The notes below the pieces were generated by a model, which was not told the DNA's origin, ran no database searches, and saw nothing but the letters and a program-made list of their open reading frames with translations. Below are positions 4,201 through 23,332 of a stretch of DNA of 32,125 nucleotides, in pieces. Positions within the stretch are counted from its first letter, which is position 1, and the number at the start of each line of letters is the position of its first letter. Position numbers and translations under genes: made by a program. The stretch spans positions 1-32,125 of the forward strand of contig CAIRBT010000022.1 of NCBI GenBank assembly GCA_903876875.1. The letters run 5' to 3'. The DNA comes from an uncultured Geobacteraceae bacterium. Its GTDB lineage: Bacteria; Desulfobacterota; Desulfuromonadia; Geobacterales; Pseudopelobacteraceae.

Positions 4201-5147
4201 CAGTTAAAAACAATACACCATTTTTTCCCATAGGCATCAAGGGTAACCGTGCGGGTAAAATAAGGCGTAAAATCATGGGGGACTTCGGTATGTTCCGTTA
4301 GCACGCTCCTGAACATCAGCTCTTTTTCGGAGGGAGTGTCACCGGCATAGACATCAAACCCCACATCTGCAGGGAGTTTTGCCATGGTGCCGTAAATAAA
4401 GTCATTCATTCTAATGGGGCTGTAAACAAAGCCATAAAAGGCTTTCCGCCGCAACTCCACCGAATCGGTTGGCATCCCCCTGCGGTAGATCGGCGCGTAC
4501 ATGAGCATACCGCTCTGTTTATCCTTTTCCGTCTCCTGCACCAGAATTATTTTAGCGGCAATGGTCGTAGAACCGCTGTCGATGGCCTTATCCATGGCGG
4601 CGCGCCGTACCGGCTCGGAATACATATCATAACCAAAAGCTCGCTGATTTCGCCAGTTGAACGGTTCAAGGTACATGATCGACGTGTAAGCCGATCGCTC
4701 CCCCACGGGCCTGAGTGTATATTCGGGAAACCCCTCACCCCGCACCGACGCCACATGCGTATCCCTTTCAGCCGGAGTCAGCCAGATACTGAAACCGACC
4801 CCCAATATGCCGGGATGATTTTCATCAAGACGGAGTGCCGAGACAAAGCGCCGCCATTCATTGCGAGTAACCTGGCCACTGCCATTAAACAGCCCAACAC
4901 CCCCCAAAAGCACCTGTTCGTGATCATGGAGCCGATTTTCAATCTGTCGGGAAACCACGGTAGTAATATCATTAAATGTTTCTGCGGCTTTACTTTGATA
5001 GTTCTCGTCAAGTAAACGCCAGAGAAATAGTGACGTTGCCAGTGACGCACAGAGCACCAACGCGGGAAGACCGCTGGCACGTGCAAGCAACGCTTTTATA
5101 GTGAATTTACCAACGGCACGGTTTTCCGCCGCAAATAAAGAACCCAT
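1233..5147 (-). CDS. CHASE-PAS-PAS-PAS hybrid histidine kinase with REC and HPt
   Basis: This 1304-residue membrane-bound hybrid kinase is the last gene of the large operon. TM1 lies at about 28-46, a periplasmic CHASE-type ligand domain at about 80-280, and TM2 at about 332-354. Three PAS domains follow (about 375-490, 510-620 and 645-765; the third begins LNAIILTMSDWVWEVD). The HisKA domain carries H787 in [12 protein letters not shown]. The HATPase has its N box (NNLLNNAIKF) and G boxes (DTGIGIP, GGSGLGLS). The receiver acceptor is D1098 (LMDVQMPVMDG) and the HPt histidine is H1244 (AHSLKGLAAN). All catalytic residues are present, so a complete His-Asp-His relay exists in one chain; the final acceptor receiver must be another protein. 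The single-domain receiver encoded 26 nt upstream is the obvious candidate (inference). A Shine-Dalgarno AAGGTGG precedes the ATG at 5147. The CHASE ligand cannot be predicted. Confidence 0.93.
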   Translation of the reverse strand: MGSLFAAENRAVGKFTIKALLARASGLPALVLCASLATSLFLWRLLDENYQSKAAETFNDITTVVSRQIENRLHDHEQVLLGGVGLFNGSGQVTRNEWRRFVSALRLDENHPGILGVGFSIWLTPAERDTHVASVRGEGFPEYTLRPVGERSAYTSIMYLEPFNWRNQRAFGYDMYSEPVRRAAMDKAIDSGSTTIAAKIILVQETEKDKQSGMLMYAPIYRRGMPTDSVELRRKAFYGFVYSPIRMNDFIYGTMAKLPADVGFDVYAGDTPSEKELMFRSVLTEHTEVPHDFTPYFTRTVTLDAYGKKWCIVFNCLPSFSKHLELVNSRLALASCILFSFLLSAISYLLSSTRDKALALAGAMSSELTEQKNRFEALSNRFALAVDSGGIGVWEWFVPENQLIWDEWMYRLYGVRAEDFSGAYDAWMAGVHPDDVESCSAAITMALRGEKEFDIQFRVVWPDCSIHNIRAFAQIERDEHGIPLRMAGVNYDITAITQTSESLASFMSLLGGTLEATMDGVLAVDLNGHISLWNQKFLDLWQVPPVLLNKEAKDPVLAHVVAQMADPEQFLQKVRELYENPEASSYDTLHLADGRIFLRNSQPQKVGATIVGRVWSFSDVTDLKQAELALLQANADAIAANETLNAIILTMSDWVWEVDRDGCYTYCSPQVYAVLGYKPSEIVGRTIYDFMSAEEAEQVRMLFSEVSQHTANIKNLESWYTHKEGQQVLICTNGVPILDESGTLAGYRGVDTDITERSRYEAEREKAIASAEAANLAKSRFLANMSHEIRTPMNGIIGMGYLALQQELSPKVHDYLSKITYSGETLMGILNEILDFSKIEANMLTIEEVEFSSVQLYENIATLQKIAAENRGLSLILPQADALPPLLIGDPLRLQQVINNLLNNAIKFTAQGTVTLSAALVERDEPGKRVNILFAVEDTGIGIPPEQLDSLFLPFTQSDTSTTREYGGSGLGLSICQSLVQLMGGEISVTSKPGVGSCFSFSLWCGLGSGEGTGGETVNNGRMGSHLFSPSPLAPLSYNAGTFAGVTILLVDDNAINTQLAAELLERVGVAVVTAANGREAVAQVTEAQGAFDLVLMDVQMPVMDGLTAARKIREQWDSSRLPIVAMTAHAMAEERDRCLQAGMDELITKPVNPDALFRMVATMVKRGGAARGATAPVPPSEGCSVPEILPGLNVAELLKRCMDDVPLMLKMAACFVKEAAVVTEELCGAIEQDEREVVRCRAHSLKGLAANVAAPGLNRVATEVEATVKGGALLSRDRFIPALREQMGRVSASVKKLHDLCGS

Positions 5148-5173
5148 GGTGCCACCTTATGGTTAATTTCCGT

Positions 5174-5551
5174 TCAACTATAGGACTCCAACAACTCTTT
5201 TACCGTACTTCGCAGAAGATTGTAATCAAGAACTTTTAAGAGGACCCGATCAGCACCCATAATTGTGGCGGTATGTTCCAGGTCATGGATATCCACCCGG
5301 GGAGAGCCACCGGTAATGACAATAATGCCCATTCCAATGTAGATATTTTTGAGATCCTGCAACACCTCAAGGCCGTCTTTTTCAGGCATCAGAATATCGG
5401 TAATAACAATCTGGTACGACTGTTCATCGGCCAATTTCATACCCTCTTTGCCGTCCTTTGCGGTATCAACCTCATGGCCGTCCAGGGTTAAATACTTCTT
5501 GATAATTTTCCTGATATCTTCCTGATCATCGATTACTAATATTCTGGCCAT
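5174..5551 (-). CDS. Single-domain CheY-like response regulator
   Basis: This 125-residue protein is a lone receiver domain with no output domain. The acidic pocket is D8-D9, the phospho-acceptor is D52 in VITDILMPEKDG, the switch Thr is T80 (VITGGS) and the conserved Lys is K106. The residue after the Lys is Val (LLKVLD), whereas most receivers have Pro there; this may alter the beta5-alpha5 loop. The start ATG at 5551 follows a strong AGGGGAG. It lies between two hybrid kinases, 55 nt after one and 26 nt before the HPt-bearing one. This suggests a shuttle receiver that accepts phosphate from the HPt domain or acts as a diffusible output on a protein target. Function is inferred from architecture and position. 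Confidence 0.92.
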   Translation of the reverse strand: MARILVIDDQEDIRKIIKKYLTLDGHEVDTAKDGKEGMKLADEQSYQIVITDILMPEKDGLEVLQDLKNIYIGMGIIVITGGSPRVDIHDLEHTATIMGADRVLLKVLDYNLLRSTVKELLESYS

Positions 5552-5606
5552 ATAATCTCCCCTGTTGTTTGTCTGAGTATGTTGCTGCTAACTCCAAACC
5601 TGTCGT

Positions 5607-8324
5607 TCAGAGAAGCTCCACTATTTTCCGCAATAACTCGTGTGGATTAATTGGTTTTACCAAGAGTTCTGCATCACCAATATCACTGACATTCTTAATA
5701 ATATCGCGAGTATGCCCACTCATAAAAATGAACTTGACCGTTGCTGATAACGCCCTGATTTCATCAAATACCTCCTTACCGCACTTCCGAGGCATAACGA
5801 CATCGGAAATTATCAGAACAATATCCTCCGCCCGCTCCCTGAATTTTTCTATCGCCTCAATGCCATCACCCGCCGTGATAACGTCAAAACCTCTGCGGGT
5901 AAGGAATTCTTCCAGTGCAATGCGATATTCAGTAAAATCTTCAACAAGCAGGATTGTGCCGGCCATCTTTGTTACATTGAGCTGACTGTTGTTCTGAGGC
6001 TGAGCGACAATCCGGGGTTCCGTAACGACCGGCAGAGTGATTGTGAACTGCGATCCTTGTCCCAAACGGCTGTCAACGGTGATAGTGCCGTTATGCTGTG
6101 TAACGATACCAAAGACCATTGCCAGCCCGAGACCGGTTCCCTTGCCGATCTCTTTCGTGGTAAAGAAAGGGTCAAAAATCCGTTGTATGATATCTTCCGG
6201 AATCCCCTCCCCCGAGTCCCGTACCGTTATGTCAACACTGTTATCCGGAGTGATGAACGTTTCAGAGCCATCCAGCGTATCGCTGCCGGAGTGAAGTGCA
6301 ACCGAAATATGCAGTGTGCCACCATTTGGCATGGCATCACGGGCATTTGTTGCAAGATTAATAATGACCTGTTCGATCTGCCCCCCATCGATATTGACCG
6401 ATATGGGACGATCATGGGGAATGACCGTACATTCAATATATTCCGGAAGCACCCTGCGTATCAGCTGCCCCGTTTGCACAATAACTGCATTAAGATCCTG
6501 TACGGCTATTTTCATGATCTGGGTGCGACTGTATGCCATCAGACCATGGGTTAATTTATTGGCATTTATGGAAGCTTCGAGAATACTGGCGGCATACTCC
6601 TGCTGTTCCTGACTCAATTCACCACTGTCGTATAACAATGAGCCGTAACCGTTAATTATACTCAACAAATTATTCAGATCATGGGCTATCCCCCCTGCCA
6701 GTTGCCCAACCGTCTCGATTTTCTGCATATGGATAAGCTGCTCCGTAAGGGCCCGTTTCTCAGTACTATCCTCCTTAACCGCAATAAAGTGCGTGATAAC
6801 ACCATTACTGTCGATAACGGCAGAAATCCAGGCATACTCGTGATACAACTGGCCGCTTTTGTTCTTATTGACAAAGTCCCCTTCCCAGGTTTTTCCCTGC
6901 AGAATCGTTGCCCAGAGTTTTTTATATGTGTGCGGTGCTGTTTGATCCGATTTTACCAGTCGAATATGCCGGCCTATGACCTCTTCAGCCGAATACCCGG
7001 TGACGTTGGTAAACTTGGGATTGATATATTCGATAATTCCCTGCGTATCGGTAATGACAGTGCTGACAGGACTCTGCTGAACGGCCTGTGAAAGCTTCAG
7101 AAGTTCGGCCGTTGAGGTATGGAGTTCGGTAACATCTTTATCCACCCCCCGATATCCTTTCAGATTCCCCTCGTCATCCATAATCGGCACACCGGTAGTT
7201 GAGTGCAATACCCGTTTCCCCGCCTTGGTTATATTCCAGTTCATGAGGTCAACAATCCGCTCTTTCTGTTGAACTATTTCACGGAACTTCCCCGAAATGA
7301 CAGGTACTTCTTCGGGCGGCATGAAATCAAAGGGATGTTTACCAAGCATCTCCGCCGGGGAATAGCCAAGCTGCTGTTCAACCCGTGGGGAACAGTAGGT
7401 GTAGCGTCCTGCGGCATCAACTTCCCAGTACCAGTCCGACATACTTTCCAGTATATCGTTCAAAACAGTGTTGGTTTTCAGGGTCTCGTCGTGCATTCGC
7501 TGCATGGTGATTTCAGTATGTTTATGCTCGGTTATGTCGAGCATTGTCCCGTGCATAATGAGTGCCCTGCCATCTTCGCCCCATACGGTAACCCTGCCGC
7601 TGTCCCTCACCCAGACCCACTGACCACAGCTGTGCTTCAACCGCATTTCAACAGTAAAATGTTTCTCATGATCGGCAAAATGCCTCCCCAGATTGGCCCT
7701 GGCGACAACCAGGTCCTCGGGATGAATGAGTGCATGGAGTGTTGAAATAGTGACCGGTGAAAGTTCTGCCAGGGTATGCCCCAGCATGGTAGCAATACGA
7801 TCATTGATAACGACGTTACCGGTTTCAATATTCCACTCCCAAACCCCCGCATCGGTCGCCTTGAGGATATTTTCCAGACGATGCTGCTCGGTAAGAAGTG
7901 CTTTTTGAGAAAAAGTTGCATGATAACGGGCATGTCGCAGTTCGCGTTCATTAACCTTGTGGGCGGTAATATCAGTCATGACAATTAACAGTTCATGGGG
8001 ATGATTTTTTTGTATGGTAAACTCAACCACCCCATGACCTCTGGTGCCGGTGCCCCCCCCCATAATAACCGGCAACGACTCACACACCATGCCACTGTCA
8101 TCAGTAAAGGCGCTAATCAAACGGTGAATTTCCTTAGTCACCGGATCCAACACCCGGAAAATATTATCCAGTTTCACCTCGGTGGTGAACCCCATGAGTA
8201 ACGAAGTAGCGCGTGGCGTGAGCATCAGAATGTCACCGGTACCGGTAATCCGGAGCAGTGCCACCGGAGAGCGATACAGGAAGGTCAACAAATCATCATA
8301 AGCCGTGCCGTTGTCGGTAGTCAT
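5607..8324 (-). CDS. Soluble PAS(4)-HisKA-HATPase-REC hybrid histidine kinase, immediately downstream of the PYP gene
   Basis: No membrane segment is visible, so this is likely a cytoplasmic kinase. Residues, numbered from the ATG at 8324: PAS about 10-115, 145-260, 280-395 and 405-515; HisKA with H548 in AGGIAHDLNN (the AHDLNN subtype); HATPase with [17 protein letters not shown] and GTGLGLAM; C-terminal receiver with D841 (ISDVVMPRKCG) and VKPINP. An in-frame GTG at 8336 directly abuts the PYP stop codon. I prefer the ATG at 8324 because GGTAGGTG sits 9 nt upstream; AGGGG is only 3 nt from the GTG. Translation is probably coupled to the PYP gene. The tight linkage makes this the best candidate for a kinase that responds to PYP, perhaps through its first PAS domain. 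That link is an inference. Confidence 0.92.
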   Translation of the reverse strand: MTTDNGTAYDDLLTFLYRSPVALLRITGTGDILMLTPRATSLLMGFTTEVKLDNIFRVLDPVTKEIHRLISAFTDDSGMVCESLPVIMGGGTGTRGHGVVEFTIQKNHPHELLIVMTDITAHKVNERELRHARYHATFSQKALLTEQHRLENILKATDAGVWEWNIETGNVVINDRIATMLGHTLAELSPVTISTLHALIHPEDLVVARANLGRHFADHEKHFTVEMRLKHSCGQWVWVRDSGRVTVWGEDGRALIMHGTMLDITEHKHTEITMQRMHDETLKTNTVLNDILESMSDWYWEVDAAGRYTYCSPRVEQQLGYSPAEMLGKHPFDFMPPEEVPVISGKFREIVQQKERIVDLMNWNITKAGKRVLHSTTGVPIMDDEGNLKGYRGVDKDVTELHTSTAELLKLSQAVQQSPVSTVITDTQGIIEYINPKFTNVTGYSAEEVIGRHIRLVKSDQTAPHTYKKLWATILQGKTWEGDFVNKNKSGQLYHEYAWISAVIDSNGVITHFIAVKEDSTEKRALTEQLIHMQKIETVGQLAGGIAHDLNNLLSIINGYGSLLYDSGELSQEQQEYAASILEASINANKLTHGLMAYSRTQIMKIAVQDLNAVIVQTGQLIRRVLPEYIECTVIPHDRPISVNIDGGQIEQVIINLATNARDAMPNGGTLHISVALHSGSDTLDGSETFITPDNSVDITVRDSGEGIPEDIIQRIFDPFFTTKEIGKGTGLGLAMVFGIVTQHNGTITVDSRLGQGSQFTITLPVVTEPRIVAQPQNNSQLNVTKMAGTILLVEDFTEYRIALEEFLTRRGFDVITAGDGIEAIEKFRERAEDIVLIISDVVMPRKCGKEVFDEIRALSATVKFIFMSGHTRDIIKNVSDIGDAELLVKPINPHELLRKIVELL

Positions 8325-8336
8325 AGAACGATGCAC

Positions 8337-8717
8337 CTACCCCTCGTACCGTACCAGTATATATCGTGTCGGAGAGCTCTCTTCATACAACAACCGCAGT
8401 CGCACCTGGGTCGGGCGCATCCGCCAGCTGAACACATAATCCATGAGCACATCCAATGATTTCCCGGCGGCACCGGCCGCTTCAAACTGCTGCGCGACCA
8501 TGTAGTTATTCATACATTGTGCCAATTCTGTAAACAACTGAGAACCGCGCGCCTGGTCAGGTGAAACCCGCGAATGACTGGATTCATAGGCATTGTAACG
8601 GCACACCGCACCGCCTGAATCAAAACCGATAACACCGAAATCAAGCGAATCCAGCTCCAGATCCGTCAGCCCCTGCAACAGTTCCAGAATACCTTCCTGA
8701 TCAAATAACATACTCAT
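8337..8717 (-). CDS. pyp: Photoactive yellow protein (xanthopsin) homologue, candidate blue-light sensor
   Basis: This 126-residue protein has the length and layout of Halorhodospira PYP (125 residues, PAS fold, p-coumaroyl chromophore on Cys69, hydrogen-bonded by Tyr42 and Glu46). Here Y41, E45 and C68 occur with exactly the same spacing (YNAYE, then LAQC 27 residues after the Tyr). The preceding block LDSLDFGVIGFD matches LDGLAFGAIQLD. RMRPTQV (99-105) matches the QMTPTKV strand, and Met100 is conserved. Differences: the Arg52 position holds Val with Arg one residue earlier, Tyr98 is Trp, and the residue before the Cys is Gln rather than Pro; these could tune colour or photocycle rate. The ATG overlaps the upstream kinase stop (ATGA), with AGGAG 7 nt before it, so it is translationally coupled. 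No Tyr ammonia-lyase or p-coumarate-CoA ligase gene lies in the window. Family assignment is strong; photoactivity is inferred. Confidence 0.85.
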   Translation of the reverse strand: MSMLFDQEGILELLQGLTDLELDSLDFGVIGFDSGGAVCRYNAYESSHSRVSPDQARGSQLFTELAQCMNNYMVAQQFEAAGAAGKSLDVLMDYVFSWRMRPTQVRLRLLYEESSPTRYILVRYEG

Positions 8718-11700
8718 ATCGTTTCTCCTCTTTTAATGCCGTACCCCGGTAAATCTTTGGCACACTCAGAGAGTGCCAACCGGAGCCGTGAGCCGGTGAC
8801 CGGCTTCATCTCATGTTTCAATTCTCCAAAATCACCGGAATGACGCTGTTCTTCAGCTATTTCATAGGCGGATAAGACAATTGCCGGCAGTGACCGGTTA
8901 TGGCTGTGTACCTGTTTCATCATGGCAAGTCCGTCCATCACCGGCATCTTGATATCGGTGATAATAATATCCGGATGGTACTCATGGTAGGCGGCCAAAC
9001 CTTCTGCTCCATCTTTTGCCGTTATCAGGGTTCCGACCATTCGGGAGAGAAACTGACTGTACTGATCCCGTGTCACGTCGTCATCCTCAACATACAGCAC
9101 GGTCAACCCCTTCAGCCGATCCGGGTGATCCATATCGATTTCAATGGTCTTGCTCCGTAAGGGGTGAGCTGCCGGTGACAGCCATTTAACGAGAAGTGCC
9201 GCAATAACGTCCTTTTTGACCGGCTTGGAAATAAAATCATCCATCCCCAGATCAAGACATTTGTCACGGTCCTCTTTCATGGCATTGGCGGTCATGGCAA
9301 TGATCGGCACGTCGTGATTCAAGACCGTGGAGCTTTGATCCCTGATCACCACCGTGGCTTCAAAACCATCCATGATCGGCATCAGGCAATCCATCAGCAC
9401 CAGATCATAGGTAACCCTGCTGAGTGCGGCCACCGCCTGCTGACCATCGGCCACCGTATCGACGGTATAGCCGAGGGTTTTCAGCATATGCAGTGCCACT
9501 TTCTGATTGATGATATTATCTTCTGCCAGCAGAATGCGTACCGAAAGGTCACCAATTTTTTGAGCAGAGGGGGAAAGAGTTCCCTGACTCTGCTCCAACG
9601 TGGTCTGCCTGGCTTTCCCCTCGTCCGTCGTCTGTTTTGTAAGACGGGCGGTAAACCAGAACGTGGAGCCCCTTCCCTCTTCGCTGACAACCCCGATCTC
9701 CCCCCCCATGAGGCCAACCAGCTGTTTGCAGATAGACAACCCCAAACCGGTTCCCCCGTATTTACGGGTGGTGGAGGCATCGACCTGGGTAAACGGGGCA
9801 AAAATCGCAGCACGGCGGGATTCCGGTATGCCGATGCCGGTGTCCTCAATGGCAAACCTGACGATTGCTGTACCTTGGTGCTCCGACTCCAGCGAGACAT
9901 GCACGGTAACGGAGCCCTGCTCGGTGAACTTGAGGGCATTGCCGACCAGGTTGGTGATCACCTGTCGGATCCTCCCCGGATCCCCTTGCACGCTGCACGG
10001 TACGGCCGAATCAATGCGATAGGTCAGATCCAGCCCCGATTCAGCAGCCCGATAGGCTAAAAGCCGGTTGATATCATCCAGTATCTGCAGCACATTAAAA
10101 TCAATCTGTTCTAATTCCAGCTTTCCCGACTCAATTTTCGAAAAATCAAGAATATCGTTAATCAGTGCCAGCAGACATTCACCACTTCTGCTGACTATCT
10201 CGGCGTATTCACGCTGTTCCCTGGTCAATGCACTCTCCAGCAGGATACTGGACATGCCAATGATGCCATTCATGGGGGTACGAATTTCATGGCTCATGTT
10301 AGCAAGGAATTCACTTTTAGCCCGATTGGCCACATCGGCCTGTTCTTTCGCAACAATAAGTTTTTCGGTCAGGGCCTTCTTATCCGTCACGTCTTCTTTG
10401 ACCGCCACAAAATGGGTAATGGCACCGGTTTCATCCTTAATGCCGGAAATTGCCGCATGCTCGTAATAGATGGTGCCATCTTTCCGTTTATTGACAAGCT
10501 CCCCCTCCCAGGTGCCACCGGAACGGAGTGCCGACCATAACGCCCGGTACGTTTCAGGCGGGGTGATGCCGGACTTGAACATGCTCGGCCGGTGACCGAT
10601 AATTTCTTCAACAGCGTAGCCGGAAATGGTGGCATACATCGGGTTCACATACTCAATAATCTCATCTTTATCGGCAATCAGCACGGCGGAGGCAGAATAT
10701 TCGACGGCCCGTGCCAACTTGCGCATCATGATTTCCGACTCCCTGCGAGGGGTAATGTCCTCGTGGGATATGACGGCGTAGGGGACACCATTCACCTGGA
10801 ACGGGCTGGCCTTACAGGCAAACCAAAAATCCTTTGAAGGGGTCGAGCAGAAATATTCCCTCACGAATTCAGGTAAGGTACCCTGGAGGACAGCAGAAAT
10901 TCCGTTGGTGAACTCGCTGATCTGTGGATCCGGCTCTCCGGCAAGCGGCTGGCAGGCAAAGAAATAGTTGGCTCCCACACCGGTATGCTCGACTATCCCG
11001 TTATTATCTTCACTAAAGGTCTGCCACGCCCCGTTTGTGGTGATGATAGTCCCCTTTTCATTAATAACACAGATATGGGCATTGATGCCGTCCAGGGTGG
11101 ATTTATAGAATTTTTCCTGTGCTATCAGGTGCTCTTCGGCTTTTTTTAATGCGGTGATGTCGGTGACCAGTACGAAAAAACCGGTGGTGCGGTTTCCGTC
11201 ACTAACCGGAATATAATTTGCCCAGGTATAGCCGGTACTGCCGTCTGCCTTGGTGATGGTACGTTCAAAATGTTGTTGTTCCCCCCGCAAGGCGGCCCTG
11301 ATATACGGCTCGTTTTTCGCAAAGAGCGACTCTCCCTGCATCTCACGAATATGGATCCCTTTCATCTCTTCAGCAGTTTTACCAAACCACTCCTTATAGG
11401 CGTGATTGGCAAATTGACAGCGGAGATTACCATCCCAATAGCCGACCATTCCCGGCAGTACGTCGATCAGTTTCCGGATAAAAGCTTCACTCTCTTCAAC
11501 GGCTGCCGCCATGGCCTGTCGCTCTTTTTCGGCCTGTTTCTGCTGGAGACCACTATTGTACAGCCTGTTCTCATAGCGTTTTAACTCAAGAAACACCCGT
11601 ACTTTTGCCTGCAGTACGGCCGGGTTAAACGGCTTGGTCAGACAGTCAACCGCACCGGTGGTATACCCTTTATAAATACTTTCAATATCGTTGAAGTAGG

Positions 11701-12004
11701 CCGAAAGAAAAATGATCGGCATGTGGCGCAGCCGCTCCTGGCTCCGAATTAACAGTGCCAATTCATAACCATCCATGCCCGGCATCTGCACATCCAGAAT
11801 CGCCAGGGCCGGTGCCTCTGCTTCCGCCATCAGTATTTCCAGTGCCGCGTCACCACTTTCGGCGAGGAGCAATTCGGCACCCGCCTGTTCCAGAGCGGTC
11901 TGGATGACATATAAATTGCCCGGCACGTCATCAACGACAAGTATTTTACACGAATCCACATCGACAGGTTGTGGCACGCTCGTCCGCTTGAATGGAGCTG
12001 TCAT
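8714..12004 (-). CDS. REC-PAS(3)-HisKA-HATPase-REC-REC hybrid histidine kinase
   Basis: This is a 1096-residue soluble hybrid kinase, numbered from the ATG at 12004. An N-terminal receiver covers 18-138 (D71, [10 protein letters not shown]). Three PAS domains lie at about 175-295, 305-420 and 430-545. HisKA carries H572 ([12 protein letters not shown]). The HATPase is complete ([24 protein letters not shown]). Two tandem receivers follow with D872 ([11 protein letters not shown]) and D1017 ([11 protein letters not shown]). The frame is open to 12070, but the ATG at 12004 is preferred: AGGGAG lies 9 nt upstream, there is no overlap with the previous gene (13-nt gap), and D71 then aligns with the paralogue at 757. 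The C-terminal half is a close paralogue of the upstream CheB-CheR protein, whose ATPase domain is missing; heterodimers are conceivable. Its stop overlaps the PYP start by 4 nt. Confidence 0.92.
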
Positions 12005-12017
12005 AGTCACCATCTCC

Positions 12018-15000
12018 CTAGCCCGGTAACCCGCTCGTACATTCCAACAAAGCCATTTTAAGCTTTGCACCCGAAACCGGCTTTATCTCATGCCTGATCT
12101 CACCAAGCTCTTCGGCTTGTCCCGTATCCTGGCCGATTTCAAAGGCGGACAGGACGATGGCCGGCAGTGATTTGTTATAACTGCGGACTTCACGTATCAT
12201 GGTCAGACCGTCCATGGTCGGCATGGCGATATCGGTGATAATGACATCCGGATGGTGTTCGTGATAGGCGGCCAAACCTTCTTCGCCATCTTTGGCGGTT
12301 ATTAAGGTACCGACCATCCGGGAGAGGAACTGGCTGTATTGGAAGCGGGTCTCATCATCGTCTTCCACATACAGTACCGTAAGATTTTTGAGGCGCGCCA
12401 GATCCTGCTTACCCACATCAATGGTTTTATTACGTAACGGATGTACCGATGGTGACAGCCATTTTTCGATGACAGCGGCAAGTTCATCCTTTTTGACCGG
12501 CTTTGAAATATAGTCATTCATCCCGGTGTTGAGACATTTATCACGGTCTTCCTTCAGCGCATTGGCGGTCATGGCGATGATTGGTACGTCGTGATTCAAA
12601 ACAGCGGAGCTGTGATCCCTGATAACGCGAGTAGCTTCAAAACCGTTCATGATCGGCATCATGCAATCCATCAGCACGACATCATATTTGACGCTGGACA
12701 GTGCCTCTACCGCCTGTTGCCCATCGTCTACCGTGTCAACAGCGTAGCCGAGTGTTTTCAGCATATGCAGAGCGACCTTCTGGTTGATGGCGTTATCCTC
12801 CACCAAAAGCAGACGTGCGGTAAGGTCGGATATCTTTTTAGCCGAGCGCAGAATGCCTTCCTTGGATCGTTCGATTTCCTCCTGCCGGGCTTTCAAGGCT
12901 TCGGCACACTGTGTTTCAAAACGAACCGTAAACCAGAAGGTGGAACCGGTATCCACTACGCTGTTGCCCGACTCTATTTTAGAGAAATCGAGGATATCGT
13001 TAATTAAGACCAGCAGATGTTCGCCACTTCTGCTGACAATCTGGGCATATTCACGCTGCTCCGGGGTCAGGGAGCTTTCCAGCAGGATGCTGGACATGCC
13101 TATCACACCATTCATGGGGGTGCGGATTTCATGGCTCATGTTAGCTAGAAACTCACTCTTGGCCCGGTTGGCCGCCTCGGCCTCTTCCGTCTTATGTGCC
13201 AGAGTAGCGTTGAGCTGTTCAAGCATGATTTGCGCCTGCTTGAGTTCAGTAACATCGGATAATAACACAAAAAAGCCAGTGACCTGACCATCAATGATGT
13301 CAGGAATATAGTGACCCCACATATACCCGGTGCTGCCATCGGCCTTGGTAGTGGTTCGTTCAAATTGCTGGTAGTGCCCCTGCAGTACGGCGGTAATGAA
13401 TGGTTCGTTCTTGTTGAAAAGGTCGTCTCCCAACAACTCACGGATGTGTATACCCCGAACCTGCTCCATGGACTTACCGAACCAATGCTGATAGGCATTA
13501 TTGGCAAAGCAACAGCGTAAATTGCTATCCCAATAACCAACCAAGCCAGGAATATTATCGGCCATATTCTTGAGAAACCGCTCATTCTTCTCAACGTTCA
13601 GAGCTAATTTTTTTTGTGTGGTAATATCCGTGTGGGAAATGACCGCACTATACCCCTGTTCATCAATGATGGCGGTCACCGTACAGAGGTACCACCGTTC
13701 CACCTCCGCTCCATGGCACGGATACTCTACGGAGTACATTGACAGTGTACCGTCAAGCACCGCCGTCAGGTTTTTGGTGAAGTCGGCCACCAAGGGATCG
13801 CCCACGGCTTTATTCAGCACAGCAAAATAATTGTCTCCAATACGATAGCCACTGCCATCGGCTCCGTTGTCAACGGCAAAGCGTTCCCAGGCCTTATTGA
13901 TAGCCGTGATCTCCCCCGCACTGTTCACCACACAAATATTTTCATTCAGGCTGTCAAGAATGGAACAGGTGAAATGATGGGACTTTGCCAAATCTTTGGT
14001 CTGTGCCTGTACCATCTGCTCCAGCTCTTCGTTTGAGCGGAGAATGATCAGTTCTGCTTCCTTGCTATGGGTAACATCGGTAAACAGGATGACCACACCT
14101 TCGATGGTTCCCGAATCGGTCTTGTAGGGCAGAATACGGATTAAAATGTAGCGACTGCCGGAGGGAGTGGCATCCTCCTTTTCAATGGTGACCCCGGTGG
14201 TGAGCACGGTCCGGATATCATCCAGCATGCGCGATTGATCGGACAGATGGTAAGCGATATGGTCAATGGGGCGGCCGATATCATGGGGTACCAGACGGAA
14301 GAACCCGGACACCTCCGTATTAAATTTCCGGATGCAGAGGCGGCTGTCAATAAACACAATACCCACATCAATACTGGAGAGGAGATTTTCCAGGTCATAA
14401 TTAAGGTTAATCAGTTCGGTATTTTTTCGTTCAAATTCAGAATTGACGGTAAAAAGTTCTTCATTCACCGAATGCAATTCTTCATTGGTACTTTGCAACT
14501 CCTCATTGGCTGCCAGCATTTCCTCATTGGTAGCCTGTAACTCTTCGTTACTGGTCTGCAGCTCCTCATTGGTTGCCTGCAGGTTTTCTCTCGTCAGATT
14601 AAGGTCAAACTCCAGGTCAGAGATGTGCTGGCGATATAACAGATCTTCTTCAAAGGTAATGGCGGCAACACCACTTTGGGGTGGCGCCACGGGGAGCGGC
14701 TTGAACTCTTCCGAGGTAAAGCAGATGAAGTAATGGGTCATTTTAACCCGTTCATCATAGAGCGGTTCTGCGGTAACGGTAACTTTCACCGTCTGCTCTT
14801 CTCCGCAGAGTAATTGGAGACCACTCATGGCAGCAGGAGTATTGTCGCGCATCGCCCGTTGAATCGTGGTACTGACGGCCACATTCAATTCGGGTATCAG
14901 CAGGGAGGTGATTTCCACATGATTACGCCCCTGTGCCGGTCGCAGGTAGGGTTGAATATCGCCAAAATAATGCAGTACATTCTGGTTCGCATCCACCAGG

Positions 15001-16574
15001 ATACCGGCGGGAACGTACCGGGCAAGCAGCAGGTCATAGTCGTTCAACAGTTGCCGATCCAAATTTACCGAACGCGCCTGGGCCGGAACCATGCGTGTGG
15101 TGGCCTGAAACTGGGTCGGTGCCGGAGAGACCCGTATATCATGCTGGAGGCGTAACTCGCGTTTTTTACGGAACAGTTTGAGGCGGGATTCAAGCACTTC
15201 AAACTCGGTTGCCAGGGGACCAATCCCTTCGCTGCTGCCAAGGAACAGCACACCGGATACTTTCAAGGCATAATGAAAGAGTGCGATGATTTTATCCTGC
15301 ACTTCAGGTTCAAGATAAATGAGCATGTTGCGACAGCTGATCATGTCGATCTTGGTAAAGGGGGGATCACTAATGAGATTGTGGGGAGCAAAAACCACCA
15401 TACGCCGGATGTCCTGACTGAGGCGCCAGGAATCATCGAGCTGCCGCCGGAAAAAACGGGTGAGCCGGTCATTGGAAACATTCACCAATCGTTCACGATT
15501 GTAAACGCACGCGGCAGCAGTTTCGAGAGAACGTTTATGAATATCGGTGGCAAAGATGGTAATTTTCCCCATATATCCCGCACATTCGGCCGCCTCGGCA
15601 AAGATAATGGCAAGGGAATACGCCTCTTCGCCGGTGGCACAACAGGCGGACCAGATACGTAACTCATCGGTTTTCTGAGCGGAGGCGATTAATTCCGGTA
15701 CAATTATTTTGGCCAGATAGTCAAAGGCTTCCGGATCACGGAAGAACTCGGTGACACCGATCAAGAGATCCCGATAGAGGGCGTCCAGCTCTTCAAAATC
15801 ACCGGCCAGGATGGAAACATAGTCTTCAGTCGTCGAAAGGGATTTAAGCTCAATTCTCCTTCTGATGCGTCTCCCCACGGTGGTTGATTTATATTTGGCA
15901 AAATCCACATTAAAGCCCCGCCTCAGCAGGGCAAATATTTCGGCATACTCCCCATCTTCCGGAAAGACCTCTACCGTGTGGGATACTTTTGAGCGAACCG
16001 CCTTGGGATCTTTGCAATATTCGGTGAGAATTTTTGGCATCCGTTCCGGCGGCAGCTGAAAATCAAAATGGCCGCTGGCGATTGCGTTACGCGGCATGCC
16101 ATCAAACTGAGCCGAATCCGGTGACTGTACCAACACCAGCCCACCCGCATCATAGATGGAACGTATCCCCCGGGATCCATCGGAGCCGGTGCCTGAGAGC
16201 ACAATGGCAATTGCCCGATTGCCAATCTCTGAGGCAAGGGAATGAAAAAAAGCATCAATGACCAGCTCCATAGGCTCACTGGTCGGCTTCTGTTTCAGAG
16301 TTATCCGCCCCGCTTTCACGCCAATGTGCAGGCGGGGTGGTGAGAGGTAGATGACATTGGGCTTCAGCTCAAGATTGTCCTTGGCCTGAACAATTGACAT
16401 GGAGGTGTGCCGTGCCAGCAGGTCATCCATGAGACTTTTGAAGTCAGGTGACAGGTGCTGAACCACCACAAACGCCATGCCACTGTCAACCGGCATCACT
16501 GAAAAGAATTGCTCAAGGGCTTTTAAGCCGCCCGCAGAGGCACCAAGGGCAACTATAATGAGATGTGAGTCCAT
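12018..16574 (-). CDS. CheB-CheR-PAS hybrid histidine kinase-like protein lacking the HATPase domain
   Basis: This is a 1518-residue fusion. The CheB methylesterase domain (1-190) has its triad S13 (GASAGGL), H40 (VQHLSPD) and D132 (GTGSDGS), with no regulatory receiver in front. The CheR domain (about 215-480) has a Cys at 311 where the SAM-binding motif normally reads SAGCATGEE. A long coiled coil of ATNEELQ-type repeats spans about 650-715. Three PAS domains follow (about 720-830, 865-980, 990-1110). HisKA carries H1148 ([12 protein letters not shown]). Immediately after DFSKIESG (about 1203) the chain jumps in frame to STFWFTVRF, the end of an HATPase domain. About 145 residues present in the adjacent paralogue, including all N and G boxes, are missing. 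Two receivers follow (D1303, D1448). It cannot bind ATP for autophosphorylation, but could be phosphorylated in trans or act as a scaffold. A GGAGG precedes the ATG. Confidence 0.9.
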
Positions 16575-16610: not shown

Positions 16611-17288
16611 TTAACTGCGTACTACCGCCGGTAACTCTTCCCATATCTGGCGGGCACAGGCAACGGTACTCTCTGCATCTTCTTCATGGGCATCCGCTCC
16701 GATCTCTTTCCAGAGACCGGGAGTGGTATTCATGGCAAAACCACCAACAAAAACCGCCGGTGGTGGAGTCATATGAGCTTCACGTATTTTGGTAATAATG
16801 TGACGAGCCGCTTCGACATTGGTCAGCATCGTAATGGAAAGAGCCACTATATGGGGGCGATAGCGTGTTATCGCCGTCAAAATTACAGATACCGGCACGT
16901 TGGCACCCAGGTAACAGATTTCCCAGCCATCCTGTTCCAGCATATCGGCAAGGATCCAGGCACCAAGTTCATGGTATTCATTGGCAACGGTGGAAACAAC
17001 GATCCTCCCTTTTGACGGGATCGCACGGATAAACCGGGCGTTCAACGTCGAAAGCACCCTTCCCACCAGGGAGGAAGCCCGATGTTCCTGTGATTCGGTC
17101 AACGTCCCCCGTTCCCATCTCTCGCCTATATCATTCATGGATGGTTGAATAATATAGCGATGGAACTGACCGAACTGATCCGCCGAAGTCAAAGCAGCCG
17201 AGACCGCAAGGCAGGCGGGGAAATTCCCGGCAACTAACGCTTCAATAAAGCGCTCTTTCAGCAGAGTCCAATCAATCGGAGTGGTCAT
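16611..17288 (-). CDS. Stand-alone cobalamin-binding protein with CarH-type light-sensing motifs
   Basis: This 225-residue protein has a helical B12-binding-2 cap (about 8-88) and a Rossmann-like B12-binding domain (about 93-220). W58, nine residues and then E68-H69 reproduce the Wx9EH motif that shields adenosylcobalamin in CarH photoreceptors. E104-x-H106-x-x-G109 is the lower-axial His signature. Downstream IVALSIT (about 151-157) and VFVGGFAMN fit the nucleotide-tail pocket. There is no MerR-type DNA-binding domain, unlike CarH, so the output must be by protein contact, as proposed for AerR-like proteins. It sits second in the operon, 12 nt after the REC-PAS-PAS gene and 36 nt before the CheB-CheR gene. 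GAGAGGAG lies 6 nt before the ATG. It could instead be a corrinoid methyl-carrier protein, but no methyltransferase partner is adjacent. Light sensing is inferred from the motif. Confidence 0.85.
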   Translation of the reverse strand: MTTPIDWTLLKERFIEALVAGNFPACLAVSAALTSADQFGQFHRYIIQPSMNDIGERWERGTLTESQEHRASSLVGRVLSTLNARFIRAIPSKGRIVVSTVANEYHELGAWILADMLEQDGWEICYLGANVPVSVILTAITRYRPHIVALSITMLTNVEAARHIITKIREAHMTPPPAVFVGGFAMNTTPGLWKEIGADAHEEDAESTVACARQIWEELPAVVRS

Positions 17289-17300
17289 GTCCGGCTCCTC

Positions 17301-18503
17301 TCAAACGTCAACACCATCGGTTTCCCGATGTTTCGTCTCAGTACTATCAGTGACAAAGCCATGCCACTGAATACTGCCATCGGGCAGCTGTTCCGGCTGA
17401 GCCGTGCTCGTGAGCCAGCGAATCCCCTTCTTCGCACGTACGACCCGAAACTCGTGAATCAGGGGGCGAAAGGTGCGCGCCGACTCGGCAATTGCGGCAA
17501 CAAACATGCTGTAGTCTTCCGGGTGCAGCATGGTGAAAAAACTCGTAGCATCTTCCTCTACCTGCTTGGGCGTCAGATCGAAAATGTCCCGAATAGCATC
17601 GCTGGCGTAGGGAAAGCAGGAATTGCCGTCGGGAAATATACGGTACTGGAAAATCATCCCCGGCAGGTGACGCCCCAGCGACATCAGCAGATCATGGCTT
17701 TTGTGCAGCTGCTCCTCCAATTTTTTCCGCACTGTTATGTCGCGGATGATGCCAATGAGATGCCATGCCGATCCTGGGCGATGAACCGCCAACGACAATT
17801 CAATCGCAATATCCTGACCATCCTTTCGTACTACCGAAAGTTCAATTGTTTTGTTTTTGGGAGTATCCAGTCCAATGGAGAGAAAATGCCGGATAGCGGC
17901 GCGATACGTTGAGATGCAGTGGGGAGCCAGCAGATCACTGAATTTTCGCTCGGCAACTTCCGTCCTGTTGTAGCCGAGGAGATGTGACGCTGCCACATTC
18001 CACTGGGCTATCTGTTCCTGTGCATCAAGCATGAAACTGGCTTCGGCAGAGAACTCAAAGCACTGCCGAAACCGCTCTTCACTTTCCTGGAGCTGTCGTT
18101 CGACTCTCAAGCGATGGGCACAGGTGAGTAAGCTTTCAAATAACTGTTTAATACTCATGGGCTTGCGCACATACGTGTCAATATGAGCGTCAATGGCCCG
18201 TATCAGGTAATCGAGTCGCTCAAAGGCGGTCACCATGACTATTGGCACCGACCGATCCAGCACACGTATCTGTTCCGCCATGGTCAAACCATCCATGGTC
18301 GGCATTTGAATATCGGTAACGATTATGTCCGGCACCTGTGAGGTAAAAACATCCAGCCCCTCTGCACCATTACGTGCCGTGAGCAGCTTTGCACAATAAC
18401 GGGCGAGAACCGGAACAGTTGCCATAAAAAGATCATCTTCATCCTCAACATAGAGAATAGTGAGAGTTTTCAAGTAATTGCTGTCAATAATGTCTTTATT
18501 CAT
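17301..18503 (-). CDS. REC-PAS-PAS response regulator without kinase or DNA-binding output
   Basis: This is a 400-residue protein, first gene of the operon. Residues about 11-128 form a receiver (VEDEDD pocket, D64 in VTDIQMPTMDG, VRKPMS). Two PAS domains follow (about 150-265 and 275-390). The chain ends after the second PAS with no catalytic domain, so it may bind a kinase or the B12 protein rather than act on DNA. The frame stays open to 18608, but that start would overlap the predicted sigma-54 promoter. The ATG at 18503 gives MNKDIIDSNYLKTL, matching the start of the paralogue at 31516 (MDIDKSFLKTL), and is preferred. The Shine-Dalgarno there is modest (GGGAAGAGAG, several nt away). Confidence 0.88.
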   Translation of the reverse strand: MNKDIIDSNYLKTLTILYVEDEDDLFMATVPVLARYCAKLLTARNGAEGLDVFTSQVPDIIVTDIQMPTMDGLTMAEQIRVLDRSVPIVMVTAFERLDYLIRAIDAHIDTYVRKPMSIKQLFESLLTCAHRLRVERQLQESEERFRQCFEFSAEASFMLDAQEQIAQWNVAASHLLGYNRTEVAERKFSDLLAPHCISTYRAAIRHFLSIGLDTPKNKTIELSVVRKDGQDIAIELSLAVHRPGSAWHLIGIIRDITVRKKLEEQLHKSHDLLMSLGRHLPGMIFQYRIFPDGNSCFPYASDAIRDIFDLTPKQVEEDATSFFTMLHPEDYSMFVAAIAESARTFRPLIHEFRVVRAKKGIRWLTSTAQPEQLPDGSIQWHGFVTDSTETKHRETDGVDV

Positions 18504-18601
18504 AGGTTTCTCTCTTCCCACCCGTTTCACCGATACGTCTGCAACCAACTGTCTCGAATAAAAACAGAACGCACAAAAACGAGTATAAGTTTGGTTAAGT
18601 A

Positions 18602-18617
18602 TGCACATTAAGTGCCA
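18602..18617 (-). promoter_or_regulatory. Sigma-54 promoter of the 17-kb signalling operon
   Basis: The minus strand reads TGGCAC-TTAAT-GTGCA. The -24 element is perfect, the GG-N10-GC spacing is exact, and the -12 element matches 4 of 5 of TTGCW. A start site near 18591 would give a leader of about 88 nt before the ATG at 18503. The next gene upstream on the same strand encodes a sigma-54 activator, which supports the call. Confidence 0.72.
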
Positions 18618-18745: not shown

Positions 18746-21103
18746 TTATTTGAGGGTGTAATACGCCGAACGACCTATCTTCAAAGCTTTGGCAGCCAGG
18801 GATTTATTACCGCCACAACGCTCCAGAGTAATGGAAAGTATCTGTTCATCAAGTGATTTCAAGCAGAGTTCATCGGTAGGAAGGGAAAGCGTATAGTGGG
18901 TGACGTGGGAAGCGGGCAGCTGTTCCGAGCCCACCGATTCGACGTTCAGCATGATATGTTTTGTATCGATGGTACCACCACCGGAGACAAGCAGAGCCCG
19001 CTCAAGGCAATTACGCAGCTCTCTGATATTACCCGGCCAGTGATAGGCATATAACCGCTGGAGTGCCCGGTCGGTAAGTTCGGTTTTATGTCGCCCCACC
19101 TGCTTGCCCAGCTCTGCCAGTAAATAGTCACAGATTGTCGGCAGATCCTCCATACGGTTCCGTAACGGTGGAATGGTAAGGGGAAAAACGGAGATGCGGT
19201 GATAGAGATCCTCCCGAAATTTCCCTTCAGCAACCATCTTGTGAAGAGGCTGGTTGGTGGCGACGATGATTCGGCACTCCACAGCTTCTGATCTTTCGGA
19301 GCCGACTTTTTCGAAGACACGCTCTTCAATAACCCGCAGCAGCTTCGCCTGGAGTGAAAAGGGCATATCACCAATTTCATCGAGAAAAATGGTGCCCCCC
19401 CGCGCCCAATGGAATTTGCCGTCCCGCTCATAATCGGCACCGGTAAAGGCACCCCGCTTATGCCCAAACAGATCACTCTCCAGCAGATAGTCCGGAATAG
19501 CGGCACAATTTACCGTCACAAAGCGACCGGTCACACCTTTCTGTGCGGTGTGAATGGCCTTTGCCAGAATCCCCTTGCCGCAGCCGCTTTCTCCATACAG
19601 TATGACGGTAGTTTGGGGGGAGTGGGCCACAATGGCGGCAAAGCTCAGAACCTTTCTCATTTCAGCATTGACGGTCACAATATTTTGGAAGGAATCCCCT
19701 TCCTGTTCCTGCTGTTTATAATAGTCCAGTTCATTTCGCAACATGGCTCTATCAGTGATATCCTGAAACGTGCCGGTTGAGAGATGGGAAGCAGTACCGG
19801 CAGTACCGGTGTTTTCCCAGATAATATCGATATACTTCTCCTTTTCACCAGCCAGCAGCAGACGCAGTGACAGGCTGCAAGAAGTATGGGCAGAGCGGGA
19901 TTCCCGAAAGGCATGGAGACTCTTTTCCCGGTCATCGGGATGAATGAGCGCAATGAATCGGTCGGCGGTCAGCGGAAACAGAGACTTCAACTCAAGGATG
20001 CGGCCGACCTCCTCTGAGTAGATAATACGACCCGTTTCGTGGTGATATTCCCAACTCCCCAGCTTGGCAATACGCTGGGCCTCTTTCATGCGTGCCTGAC
20101 TAACCTGCAGAGCTTGCTCGGCCAAGACATTGTCACTTTTGTCATGGAGCAGCAGTGCACAGTATCCTGGAGCGGGGGCAAACGCGTAGAGAGAATAATG
20201 ACGATTATGGAGGGGGCAGTAGCGGGTCACGCGCGTGGATTCGCCGGAAATTACCGCATTTTTACATACCTCAACAATGGATAACTGCTCGTTGAGTGAT
20301 AGTTCGGAAACGCTTTTCCCCACCACGTTAGAACTATTCAGCCCGGTAATCCTTTCAAAAGCACCATTGATTTCAATAATGCGAAAATCAGTAATATTCG
20401 CCAGGTTATCATAGACAACCTCATGAAGCGCAAACCCTTCGGTCATGGTATGAAAGAGTGCCTTGTACTTTGCTTTACTCTTGATCACCTCGTCCCGCAA
20501 TAATCGCGATTCGGTAATGTCACGGGCAACAATCAAAATCCCGATAACGTCAGTGGAGTTATTATACAGCGGTTTTTTCAGTGATTCAAAACAGCGGCGA
20601 CTGCCGTCGGGAAGGCTCAACCAGTAATCGGATTTCAGACTGATACCTGTGGTAACTACGGTTAAATCCTCCTCCCGCAAGGCGTCAACCACCGCCGCAT
20701 CGGGAATAAAATCGGCGTCATATTTCCCTATCACCTCTTCACGGCTACAGCCACACCCCTTTTCTGCAAAGGATCGGTTACACCCCCTATACACCCCGGA
20801 CGGGTCTTTCCAGAGGATAAAATCCTGCATGGAATCAACCACGAGATTAAGGACTTCTGAATTATTAAACGCATAGAGCGACGTATATTGGGTCAACAAC
20901 TCTTCGTTACGATGCACTGCCTCCATCAATTCGGCATTTTGCATCTCCAGTTCAATCTGATGAACCTGCAACTCATGGAAGTGGCGTATATCGGTAAAGT
21001 GAGAGAGGGGGGAGCCATCACCACCATCTGCCACAGCCAACAACTCTTCGGCGCGCGCCCTCAGCTTATGCGATTTTTCTTCAAAGTTGCGTATGATCGA
21101 CAT
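18746..21103 (-). CDS. PAS-containing sigma-54-dependent transcriptional activator (enhancer-binding protein)
   Basis: This is a 785-residue protein. An N-terminal helical stretch contains the HQIELEMQNAEL motif often seen ahead of PAS domains. Three PAS/PAC units lie at about 85-200, 210-330 and 340-450. The AAA+ sigma-54 interaction domain (about 475-705) has Walker A GESGCGKG at 504-511, the sigma-54-contacting GAFTGA loop at 551-556 and Walker B with D575 (IFLDEIGD). A Fis-type helix-turn-helix ends the chain (GGNKSLAAKALKIGRSAYY). There is no receiver domain, so control is by PAS ligand or protein contact, not by phosphorylation. It is encoded directly upstream of, and on the same strand as, the sigma-54-promoter operon. 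The ATG at 21103 is the first possible start, because a TGA in frame lies a few codons upstream; its own ribosome binding site is weak. Confidence 0.93.
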   Translation of the reverse strand: MSIIRNFEEKSHKLRARAEELLAVADGGDGSPLSHFTDIRHFHELQVHQIELEMQNAELMEAVHRNEELLTQYTSLYAFNNSEVLNLVVDSMQDFILWKDPSGVYRGCNRSFAEKGCGCSREEVIGKYDADFIPDAAVVDALREEDLTVVTTGISLKSDYWLSLPDGSRRCFESLKKPLYNNSTDVIGILIVARDITESRLLRDEVIKSKAKYKALFHTMTEGFALHEVVYDNLANITDFRIIEINGAFERITGLNSSNVVGKSVSELSLNEQLSIVEVCKNAVISGESTRVTRYCPLHNRHYSLYAFAPAPGYCALLLHDKSDNVLAEQALQVSQARMKEAQRIAKLGSWEYHHETGRIIYSEEVGRILELKSLFPLTADRFIALIHPDDREKSLHAFRESRSAHTSCSLSLRLLLAGEKEKYIDIIWENTGTAGTASHLSTGTFQDITDRAMLRNELDYYKQQEQEGDSFQNIVTVNAEMRKVLSFAAIVAHSPQTTVILYGESGCGKGILAKAIHTAQKGVTGRFVTVNCAAIPDYLLESDLFGHKRGAFTGADYERDGKFHWARGGTIFLDEIGDMPFSLQAKLLRVIEERVFEKVGSERSEAVECRIIVATNQPLHKMVAEGKFREDLYHRISVFPLTIPPLRNRMEDLPTICDYLLAELGKQVGRHKTELTDRALQRLYAYHWPGNIRELRNCLERALLVSGGGTIDTKHIMLNVESVGSEQLPASHVTHYTLSLPTDELCLKSLDEQILSITLERCGGNKSLAAKALKIGRSAYYTLK

Positions 21104-21283: not shown

Positions 21284-23332
21284 ATGTTTATCATGAAACT
21301 GTATCTCAACCTGTCGGTTAAAACGAAAATGGTTATTTTTACCGGCAGCTTTTCATTGTGGCTCCTGCTTATTGCGGTCATGGGCATCTTTAATAACCGT
21401 GAGGTGGCAACGGGGTTTATTGAAGCAAACAGTGCCCTCGATACAATCGTGTCATTTGAAAAATTGCATAACGAATGTGACGACCTACGACTGACATTAG
21501 CCACTGCTCTCGCGGAACAATCCGCAGAGCGGCTGACTGAAAACAGACGTGAGGTGGAAGGGCGAACAAACCGTATCACCACCATCATCGACACAATCCG
21601 TGCCAAGAAAAGAGGGGGTGAAGAGGAACAAAAAGTCTTCACCTCGCTGGAAAGTGCCTGGTCCGTATACCGTACCCAGATAATGAAATTACAGGAGTTA
21701 GAGAAATCATCCGTTGCAGGTGATCGCCAGGCAGCTGCTGTTTTTATTACCGAACAGGTGAATCCTTTCTACAAAAGCCTTGATGTGGCTCTGGCAGCCG
21801 CCCTTAAATTCCACCACGAGCACAGCAGCACCATGCATAAGGCACATCTTCAGCAGGCAAAGCTGTTCCAGTGGCTCGGTGGTGCCCTCGCCGTCTTTTC
21901 CATCTTGCTGGCCAGCATCTTTAGCTGGCTGCTGACCCGCTGCATTACCCGCCCAATTATATCGCTGTCCCACAACGCACACCTGATTGCCGAGGGAGAT
22001 CTCAGAATTGAGATAGATATTGATTCTCGGGACGAAATTGGTCAGTTGGGTGAATCGTTTAAATTGATGGTTAACTCTCTGAAAGAACTGATAAGTACAC
22101 TGGCCGATTCGTCTGCCCAGGTATTGGATTCCTCAGCAATCATGTCGTCAAACGCCGATGAGATGGCACAGGCAGCGGATAATGCTGTTTCCCAAACCAC
22201 GACCGCTGCCGTGGCCACCGAGGAAATGTCGGTCACGTCGGGGGACATTGCCCATAACTGCCAAGTTGCTGCGGAATGCGCCCAGAGGGCACGTGATGCG
22301 GCACAGAACGGGGCAACCGTTGTTGAAAGAACAATTATGGTCATGGAAAGGATCGCGGAGCGGGTGCAGGTTTCCGCACGTACCGTCGAAGACCTGGGTA
22401 CACAAAGTGATCAGATTGGCTCAATTATCGGTACCATTGAAGATATTGCCGATCAAACGAACCTGCTGGCTCTGAATGCCGCCATTGAAGCGGCACGGGC
22501 AGGAGAACAGGGGCGTGGCTTTGCGGTGGTTGCCGACGAGGTACGGGCACTGGCGGAACGAACCACCAGAGCAACGCGGGAAATCAGCGGCATGATACTG
22601 GCAATCCAGAAAGACACCAGGTCGGCCGTTTCAGCCATGGAAGAAGGTGTTGCCGAAGTCGAGGAGGGAACCCGGGAAGCCGCCCGTTCTGGCCAGGCTC
22701 TCCACAACATTCAAGAGGAAATCAGCAGCGTCAATCTGCAGGTTCAACAGATTGCCACGGCTGCCGAAGAGCAGACCACCACGGCGCGGGATATTAGCCA
22801 TAACATCCATCTGGTTACCGAAGTCGTCAAAAACACCGCCGATGACGCCCGGCAATGCGTCACCCTGTCACAACAGTTGAGCACCCTTTCAACCGTTCTG
22901 AAAAATGTGGTCGGCAAATTTACCTTTTCCGAATCCAACACGTTTTTTGTCTGGAACAACAGCTACAGTGTCGGCAACGACGCCATGGATCAAGAGCACA
23001 AACGTTTGGTTGAAATCATCAACAATCTGTACGGTTCCATGCGCTTGGGCAAAGGCAACAAGGCAATCGGGACAACTCTGGATCGCCTGGTTGATTATAC
23101 CAGAACGCATTTTACCAATGAAGAATCCTACATGAAGCAGATTGGCTATGCCACCTACGACAGCCACAAACGGGAACATGCTGACCTGACAAAACAGGTG
23201 GTAGCTATTCAAAACAAGTATCATGCCGGTGCGGTACTGAGTTTGGAGGTTATGAGTTTTTTAAAGGATTGGCTGGTTACCCACATCCAGGGCTCGGACA
23301 AACTGTACGGCCCAAAGGGCAAGAGATTTTAA
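21284..23332 (+). CDS. Methyl-accepting chemotaxis protein with C-terminal bacteriohemerythrin domain
   Basis: This is a 682-residue chemoreceptor. TM1 lies at about 16-36, a periplasmic four-helix-bundle type ligand domain at about 40-185, TM2 at about 187-212 and HAMP at about 213-266. The cytoplasmic signalling domain has the hairpin tip [19 protein letters not shown] and pentapeptide-like flanks. A hemerythrin domain (about 552-677) carries all seven di-iron ligands: H572, H609, E613, H628, H632, H667 and D672. DcrH of Desulfovibrio has the same architecture and senses oxygen or redox state. Here the domain probably reports O2 or NO to the chemotaxis machinery. GAGGGA lies 6 nt before the ATG. 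The last 4 nt overlap the convergent peroxidase gene. No cheA or cheW gene is in the window. Confidence 0.95.

Follow-up and report, generated by a model that had tools for sequence, protein, structure and literature searches.

The locus examined here raises the question of what a cobalamin-binding protein is for when its gene stands among genes for receivers and histidine kinases. In the preliminary description of the window (the whole 32,125-nt stretch of DNA that was analyzed), the gene at 16611-17288 was read as encoding a CarH-like B12 photoreceptor domain, lacking the MerR domain, that feeds a phosphorelay by protein contact.

Domains and motifs of the cobalamin-binding protein

The open reading frame at 16611-17288 (minus strand) is complete, starts with an ATG directly preceded by a ribosome-site-like sequence (GAGAGGAG), and encodes a stand-alone cobalamin-binding protein of 225 aa, assigned below to group A. 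Pfam recognizes two domains, both above cut-offs: B12-binding_2, the helical cap (E 3e-8; residues 11-82, 17043-17258, minus strand), and the Rossmann-type B12-binding domain (E 1.2e-22; residues 94-208, 16665-17009, minus strand). The search finds no MerR or other DNA-binding domain in the protein, which holds only the two B12 domains, from residue 11; on this point the preliminary description is borne out. A script check confirmed the upper-face motif W58-x9-E68-H69 (17082-17117, minus strand), with E59 directly after the Trp, the lower-ligand motif E104-Y-H106-E-L-G109 (16962-16979, minus strand), preceded by Asn at residue 103, and also G55ERW58 and G128-A-N-V-P132 (16893-16907, minus strand). 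The first two motifs had been put forward jointly as the signature of a light sensor. The residues are present and Wx9EH is indeed diagnostic, an intact Wx9EH separating photoresponsive CarH from B12-independent CarA; ExHxxG, however, is a general B12-binding motif common to light-independent proteins and is not diagnostic (PMC9304148).

The published green-light signature comprises GxxW, EH, GxxH and GxxxP (PMC11796333). Of this SignatureFinder signature the protein has GxxW, EH and GxxxP (G55ERW58, E68H69 and G128ANVP132) but not GxxH, which reads N103-E-Y-H106; across group A the Gly position is N, S (L001), N and G (the C103 paralogue), and Asn also occurs in group B. The classic CarH motif D/ExHx2G-x41-SxT/V-x22-27-GG is present as E104-H106-G109, S151-T153 and G182-G183, with a last spacing of 28, one past the stated 22-27. 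Since the best solved relatives, CtMerR (8jbs, 2e-19) and photocobilins (8j2w, 3e-17), are light receptors, the Wx9EH and ExHxxG motifs are not there by chance. TtCarH was left out of the profile search because its inclusion would have made support for CarH circular; with a profile free of any CarH, photocobilin 8j2w ranks top at 115 bits, compared with at most 88 bits for other B12 proteins and methyl carriers and a weak 26 bits for AerR. An AlphaFold model built from a two-sequence alignment has a mean pLDDT of 59.6 and was for that reason kept out of the evidence; Foldseek ranks photocobilins and CtMerR first with it, as the sequence predicts. Three partial matches lie in faecal phage-like records, and no function is drawn from them.

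Residue by residue, the likeness to CarH is partial. TtCarH (5c8d) has Wx9EH, ExHxxG and the B12 module in common with the protein, at 25% identity, whereas the CarH/LitR family carries a MerR DNA-binding domain and, in many but not all members, the bis-His histidine, and the protein has neither. The position of CarH His132, the cobalt ligand of the bis-His light state, is occupied by E59, so no such state would be expected to form. R176-D201, the dimer salt bridge of the CarH literature, corresponds to Y105/N130, and the TtCarH bridge is not kept. Because H132, R176-D201 and the GxxH glycine are replaced by E59, Y105/N130 and N103, a tetramer-to-monomer switch of the CarH type is not predicted, and CarH proper is ruled out as the identity of the protein by the missing DNA-binding domain and the loss of several CarH-specific residues. 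CtMerR, the best single solved match, and the photocobilins also lack the CarH light-state His, yet respond to light (PMC11796333); CtMerR differs in carrying a DNA-binding domain. The photocobilins (SasPcob 8j2w, AbDPcob 8j2y; PMC10979010) resemble the protein in the B12 module and Wx9EH, but they carry a bilin-binding globin domain that group A does not have, and the protein has NxxH instead of GxxH. No bilin-binding globin-like domain is recognized in the protein or in the other proteins of its operon.

Family relationships and genome inventory

In a maximum-likelihood tree the MetH and MtgC proteins of the order stand apart from every Wx9EH domain, among them those of TtCarH, CtMerR and SasPcob (bootstrap 99, SH-aLRT 96), and a quick tree with more rows gives the same split (99). 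Assignment of the protein to the CarH/photocobilin Wx9EH side, apart from the methyl carriers, is thus supported; the exact place of the CarH rows is unsure because of long branches, and the order's two AerR-like rows are placed on the side of the methyl carriers. The 'CarH-like' label therefore stands as regards membership of the Wx9EH side but is too narrow, as the closest kin are proteins joining a photoglobin-like domain to a B12 domain.

The group-A proteins form a single clade (100/99), which the tree joins to these photoglobin-like-domain + B12 proteins, group B (99/96); group B as one side of a branch receives 78/29. Group A has four known members: the protein at 16611-17288, a paralogue on contig C103 of the source genome (65% identical), and those of G013, a Geobacteraceae MAG (54%), and of genome G025 (45%). 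All four keep Wx9EH intact, as do nearly all members of groups B and C; no MetH/MtgC row has it. The second group-A gene of the source genome (L055 1-402) runs off the end of its contig at about residue 131. Group B has about 150 aa more at the N terminus, an additional domain in front of the same B12 domain; group A would either have lost that domain or be sister to the group-B proteins, so that the protein would derive from, or be sister to, the B12 half of photocobilin-type proteins. Pooled with Ilyobacter and alphaproteobacterial homologues, the group-B domain gives a profile match (E 2e-8) to the C-terminal domain of photocobilin-like proteins from Streptomyces; pooled with Ilyobacter alone it gives E 3e-4, compared with 0.3-0.6 for controls, and no PDB match to it is found by sequence. 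One photocobilin-like gene, on a Streptomyces plasmid (L074 2986-4065), lies directly 5' of a gas-vesicle gene cluster.

Group C consists of stand-alone B12 domains whose genes mostly adjoin a heme-oxygenase gene, and both heme oxygenases of the source genome adjoin group-C genes. Heme oxygenases fused to a further domain, unassigned, about 200 aa long and with SSRGMP conserved, are encoded at L051 7217-8509, L053 1582-2871, L057 6722-8041 and L048 16944-18245 and also in L104, L107, L108, L109 and L110, beside or near Wx9EH-type B12 genes; the fusion is possibly the partner that makes and binds bilin in a split photocobilin. The C-terminal half of the heme oxygenases resembles photoglobin by hhalign (E 0.005 and 0.001, controls near 0.5), a likeness that is suggestive only, and homology as a firm claim was rejected. 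A further, C-fused type, B12-PAS-PAS-HisKA-HATPase, is encoded in the source genome (C79) and in G013; the fusions at L054 8117-10798 and L056 5917-8613 have ER in place of the EH of Wx9EH and are followed by a single-domain response regulator, and L054 also holds a BtuR/CobO gene (4986-5567) on the same contig. B12-binding_2 domains number eight in the 3.93-Mb source genome, of which one belongs to MetH, one to an MtgC-like carrier and six to sensor-type proteins; the genome's two BtuR/CobO adenosyltransferases make a supply of AdoCbl plausible. In two genomes AerR-like B12 genes (L045 11660-12307, L046 11723-12385) lie within a few kilobases of a photoglobin-like-domain + B12 gene, beside histidine kinases and uroporphyrinogen-decarboxylase-family genes (L045 10633-11673, L046 10695-11789; the family assignment was checked with Pfam in L046).

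The operon and its linkage to kinase genes

All genes of the operon are on the minus strand. The first, 12 nt upstream of the B12 gene, encodes a REC-PAS-PAS protein (17301-18608; likely true start ATG 18503), and 36 nt downstream of the B12 gene lies that for a CheB-CheR-PAS-HisKA-REC-REC protein (12018-16574). The latter overlaps the gene for a REC-PAS-PAS-HisKA-HATPase-REC-REC hybrid kinase (8714-12070), the nearest complete kinase; a small PAS-like protein with a weak match (8337-8717), a PAS-HisKA-HATPase-REC hybrid kinase (5607-8336), a single-domain response regulator (5174-5551) and a CHASE-PAS-HisKA-HATPase-REC-Hpt hybrid kinase (1233-5147), the probable end of the operon, follow. The gaps from 17301 downward are 12, 36, -53, -4, 0, 55 and 26 nt, from which co-transcription is likely. 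The placement of the gene among REC-PAS and hybrid kinase genes is confirmed by these same-strand neighbors as read with Pfam. Pfam identifies no corrinoid methyltransferase gene in the operon, which also has no CheA-type kinase gene, and the window contains no cobalamin riboswitch or other Rfam RNA.

A candidate operon regulator, a PAS + sigma-54 activator (18746-21103, minus strand), is encoded just beyond the first gene. A sigma-54-like promoter with one mismatch, TGGCACTTAATGTGCA (18602-18617, minus strand), adjoins the activator gene and lies about 100 nt 5' of the probable REC-PAS-PAS start at 18503; it is suggestive only and is treated as a lead, since the window holds 4 such sites against 1.4 expected. 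Divergent from the activator gene is one for an MCP with a C-terminal hemerythrin domain (21284-23332), a likely oxygen sensor beside the B12 operon.

In the CheB-CheR-PAS protein HisKA passes straight into REC, the HATPase domain having been lost in-frame near 12965 by comparison with both the adjacent kinase (8714-12070) and the G013 homologue. The adjacent kinase has a full HATPase domain, with flanks similar to those of the join, and the absence is either a real deletion or an assembly error. As predicted from its domains, the protein cannot itself be a kinase, barring such an error, because it has no HATPase.

Linkage to kinase genes is strong and recurrent in the family. Counted with a single gene-calling and probe set for both classes, 23 of 30 sensor-type B12 genes of the order, but none of 20 MetH/MtgC controls, lie immediately next to a kinase or receiver gene on the same strand (Fisher p 2e-8, to be read with the fact that paralogues and related genomes make the loci not independent); a signalling gene of any kind lies within two genes in 27/30 and 3/20, respectively. 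CheB-CheR-PAS genes flank the group-A gene on both sides in G013, and an MCP gene adjoins the group-A gene in G025 and two group-B genes. A histidine kinase and response regulator neighbor the related B12 gene in Azospirillum. For Ilyobacter and the more distantly related members of the phylum, the adjoining gene is mostly a GGDEF gene. A photoglobin-like-domain + B12 gene followed by a GGDEF gene occurs in Ilyobacter and several members of the source's phylum (L059 4557-6600, L093, L094, L096, L098, L099, L101), an arrangement that would pair the same sensor with a diguanylate cyclase encoded separately. The photoglobin survey of Schneider et al. (2022) may already report some of the linkage to kinases.

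Proposed mechanism and competing explanations

On balance we lean, if only slightly, toward a stand-alone AdoCbl light-sensor subunit of a two-component system. The dark form would hold AdoCbl between the helical cap and the Rossmann fold, with H106 as lower ligand and W58, E68 and H69 packed against the adenosyl group; on exposure to blue-green light the Co-C bond would be cleaved, the adenosyl group driven out and the cap displaced. As the protein has no DNA-binding domain, output would pass through the operon's proteins: the altered surface would be read most likely by the REC-PAS-PAS and CheB-CheR-PAS-HisKA-REC-REC proteins, and the signal then passed to the complete hybrid kinase (8714-12070). 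The steps are not equally secure. Cofactor occupancy is very probable, whereas a response to light and signalling to the operon's proteins are each judged reasonably likely; that a B12 sensor of this kind feeds a phosphorelay by protein contact, as the preliminary description suggested, we infer with good support.

The light-sensor reading draws on the intact Wx9EH, the photoreceptors that head both the solved relatives and the CarH-free profile, the 99/96 split of the tree, the heme oxygenases beside sister-group genes, the two BtuR/CobO enzymes and a precedent, the stand-alone photocobilin that, when illuminated, switches on a distinct diguanylate cyclase in trans (PMC10979010). Against it stand N103 at the position of the signature Gly, an Asn that group B also has, the substitutions E59 and Y105/N130 (tempered by the light responses of CtMerR and photocobilins without that His), the ER of the fused B12-kinases and the rarity of group A, found in only 3 of 141 genomes of the order. 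Geobacterales are mostly anaerobes and the source genome has no phytochrome, so that a use for light is not obvious. Input to kinases is favored by the neighbor counts, by the B12-PAS-PAS-HisKA-HATPase fusions of the source genome and G013 and by the CheB-CheR-PAS linkage kept in G013, but the direct CheB-CheR partner has no HATPase. The same operon could instead give a light sensor a chemotaxis or adaptation output through CheB/CheR parts or MCPs, in keeping with the CheB-CheR-PAS genes of the source genome and G013 and the MCP genes beside one group-A and two group-B genes; as the operon's other genes encode kinases and receivers, with none of the CheA type, we consider this very improbable.

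N103, E59 and the anaerobic host group would also suit a light-independent cobalamin or redox sensor that reports corrinoid state (adenosyl-, methyl- or hydroxo-cobalamin) or oxygen to the kinases, in the manner of SAerR or AppA-like domains, light being incidental. AerR is itself a stand-alone B12 co-regulator (PMC9144470), and AerR/SAerR of Rhodobacter capsulatus acts by protein contact, although on a transcription factor and not a kinase. Such a sensor is an unlikely but serious alternative: an intact Wx9EH, the motif in contact with the adenosyl group of CarH, is retained across group A and in almost every member of groups B and C, the latter two carry or adjoin photoglobin-like or heme-oxygenase proteins, and AerR scores far below the photocobilins. 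A scaffold past cofactor use, merely docking signalling proteins, has a parallel in CarA, which works without B12 (PMC9304148), and would agree with the rapid divergence of group A (45-54% identity between species); yet CarA lost the Trp that the protein kept, and all residues of both motifs are conserved in the three full-length group-A proteins, among which only 34% of positions are invariant, so that this explanation is improbable. A methyl-carrier corrinoid protein serving a distant methyltransferase, which the preliminary description had named as a contrary outcome, is not borne out and has only the slimmest chance. MtbC/MtgC and MetH have the two-domain fold and the D/ExHxxG lower-ligand motif in common with the protein, and in NCBIfam MtgC/MtbC (75 and 64 bits) score slightly above CarH (60), but every one of these matches is far under its cut-off (370, 350 and 400, respectively); the methyl carriers have Phe for Trp, no EH and methyltransferase partners, lie on the opposite side of the tree, and, in the 20 genes counted, have no immediate kinase neighbors. 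This identity is accordingly rejected on motif, tree, neighbors and cut-offs.

Wx9EH B12 photoreceptor domains are known; the clade described here would be a variant of these, in a little-studied family with genes recurrently beside those for kinases. The tested B12 photoreceptors found in the literature act on DNA, a transcription factor or a diguanylate cyclase, whereas the putative partners here are histidine kinases, receivers and a CheB-CheR-PAS protein. It is conceivable, though we would not yet call it probable, that an entire class of B12-gated two-component systems exists in Geobacterales and their relatives, turning light into phosphorelay output and comprising stand-alone, photoglobin-fused, heme-oxygenase-paired and kinase-fused Wx9EH domains; group A would then be the form without bilin, working in trans on a CheB-CheR-PAS/hybrid-kinase operon. 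If true, a phosphorelay gated by a B12 domain would give the commonest bacterial signalling system a green-light input and supply small modules for the optogenetic control of kinases, and the reason why mostly anaerobic iron reducers hold so many B12 sensors would become testable.
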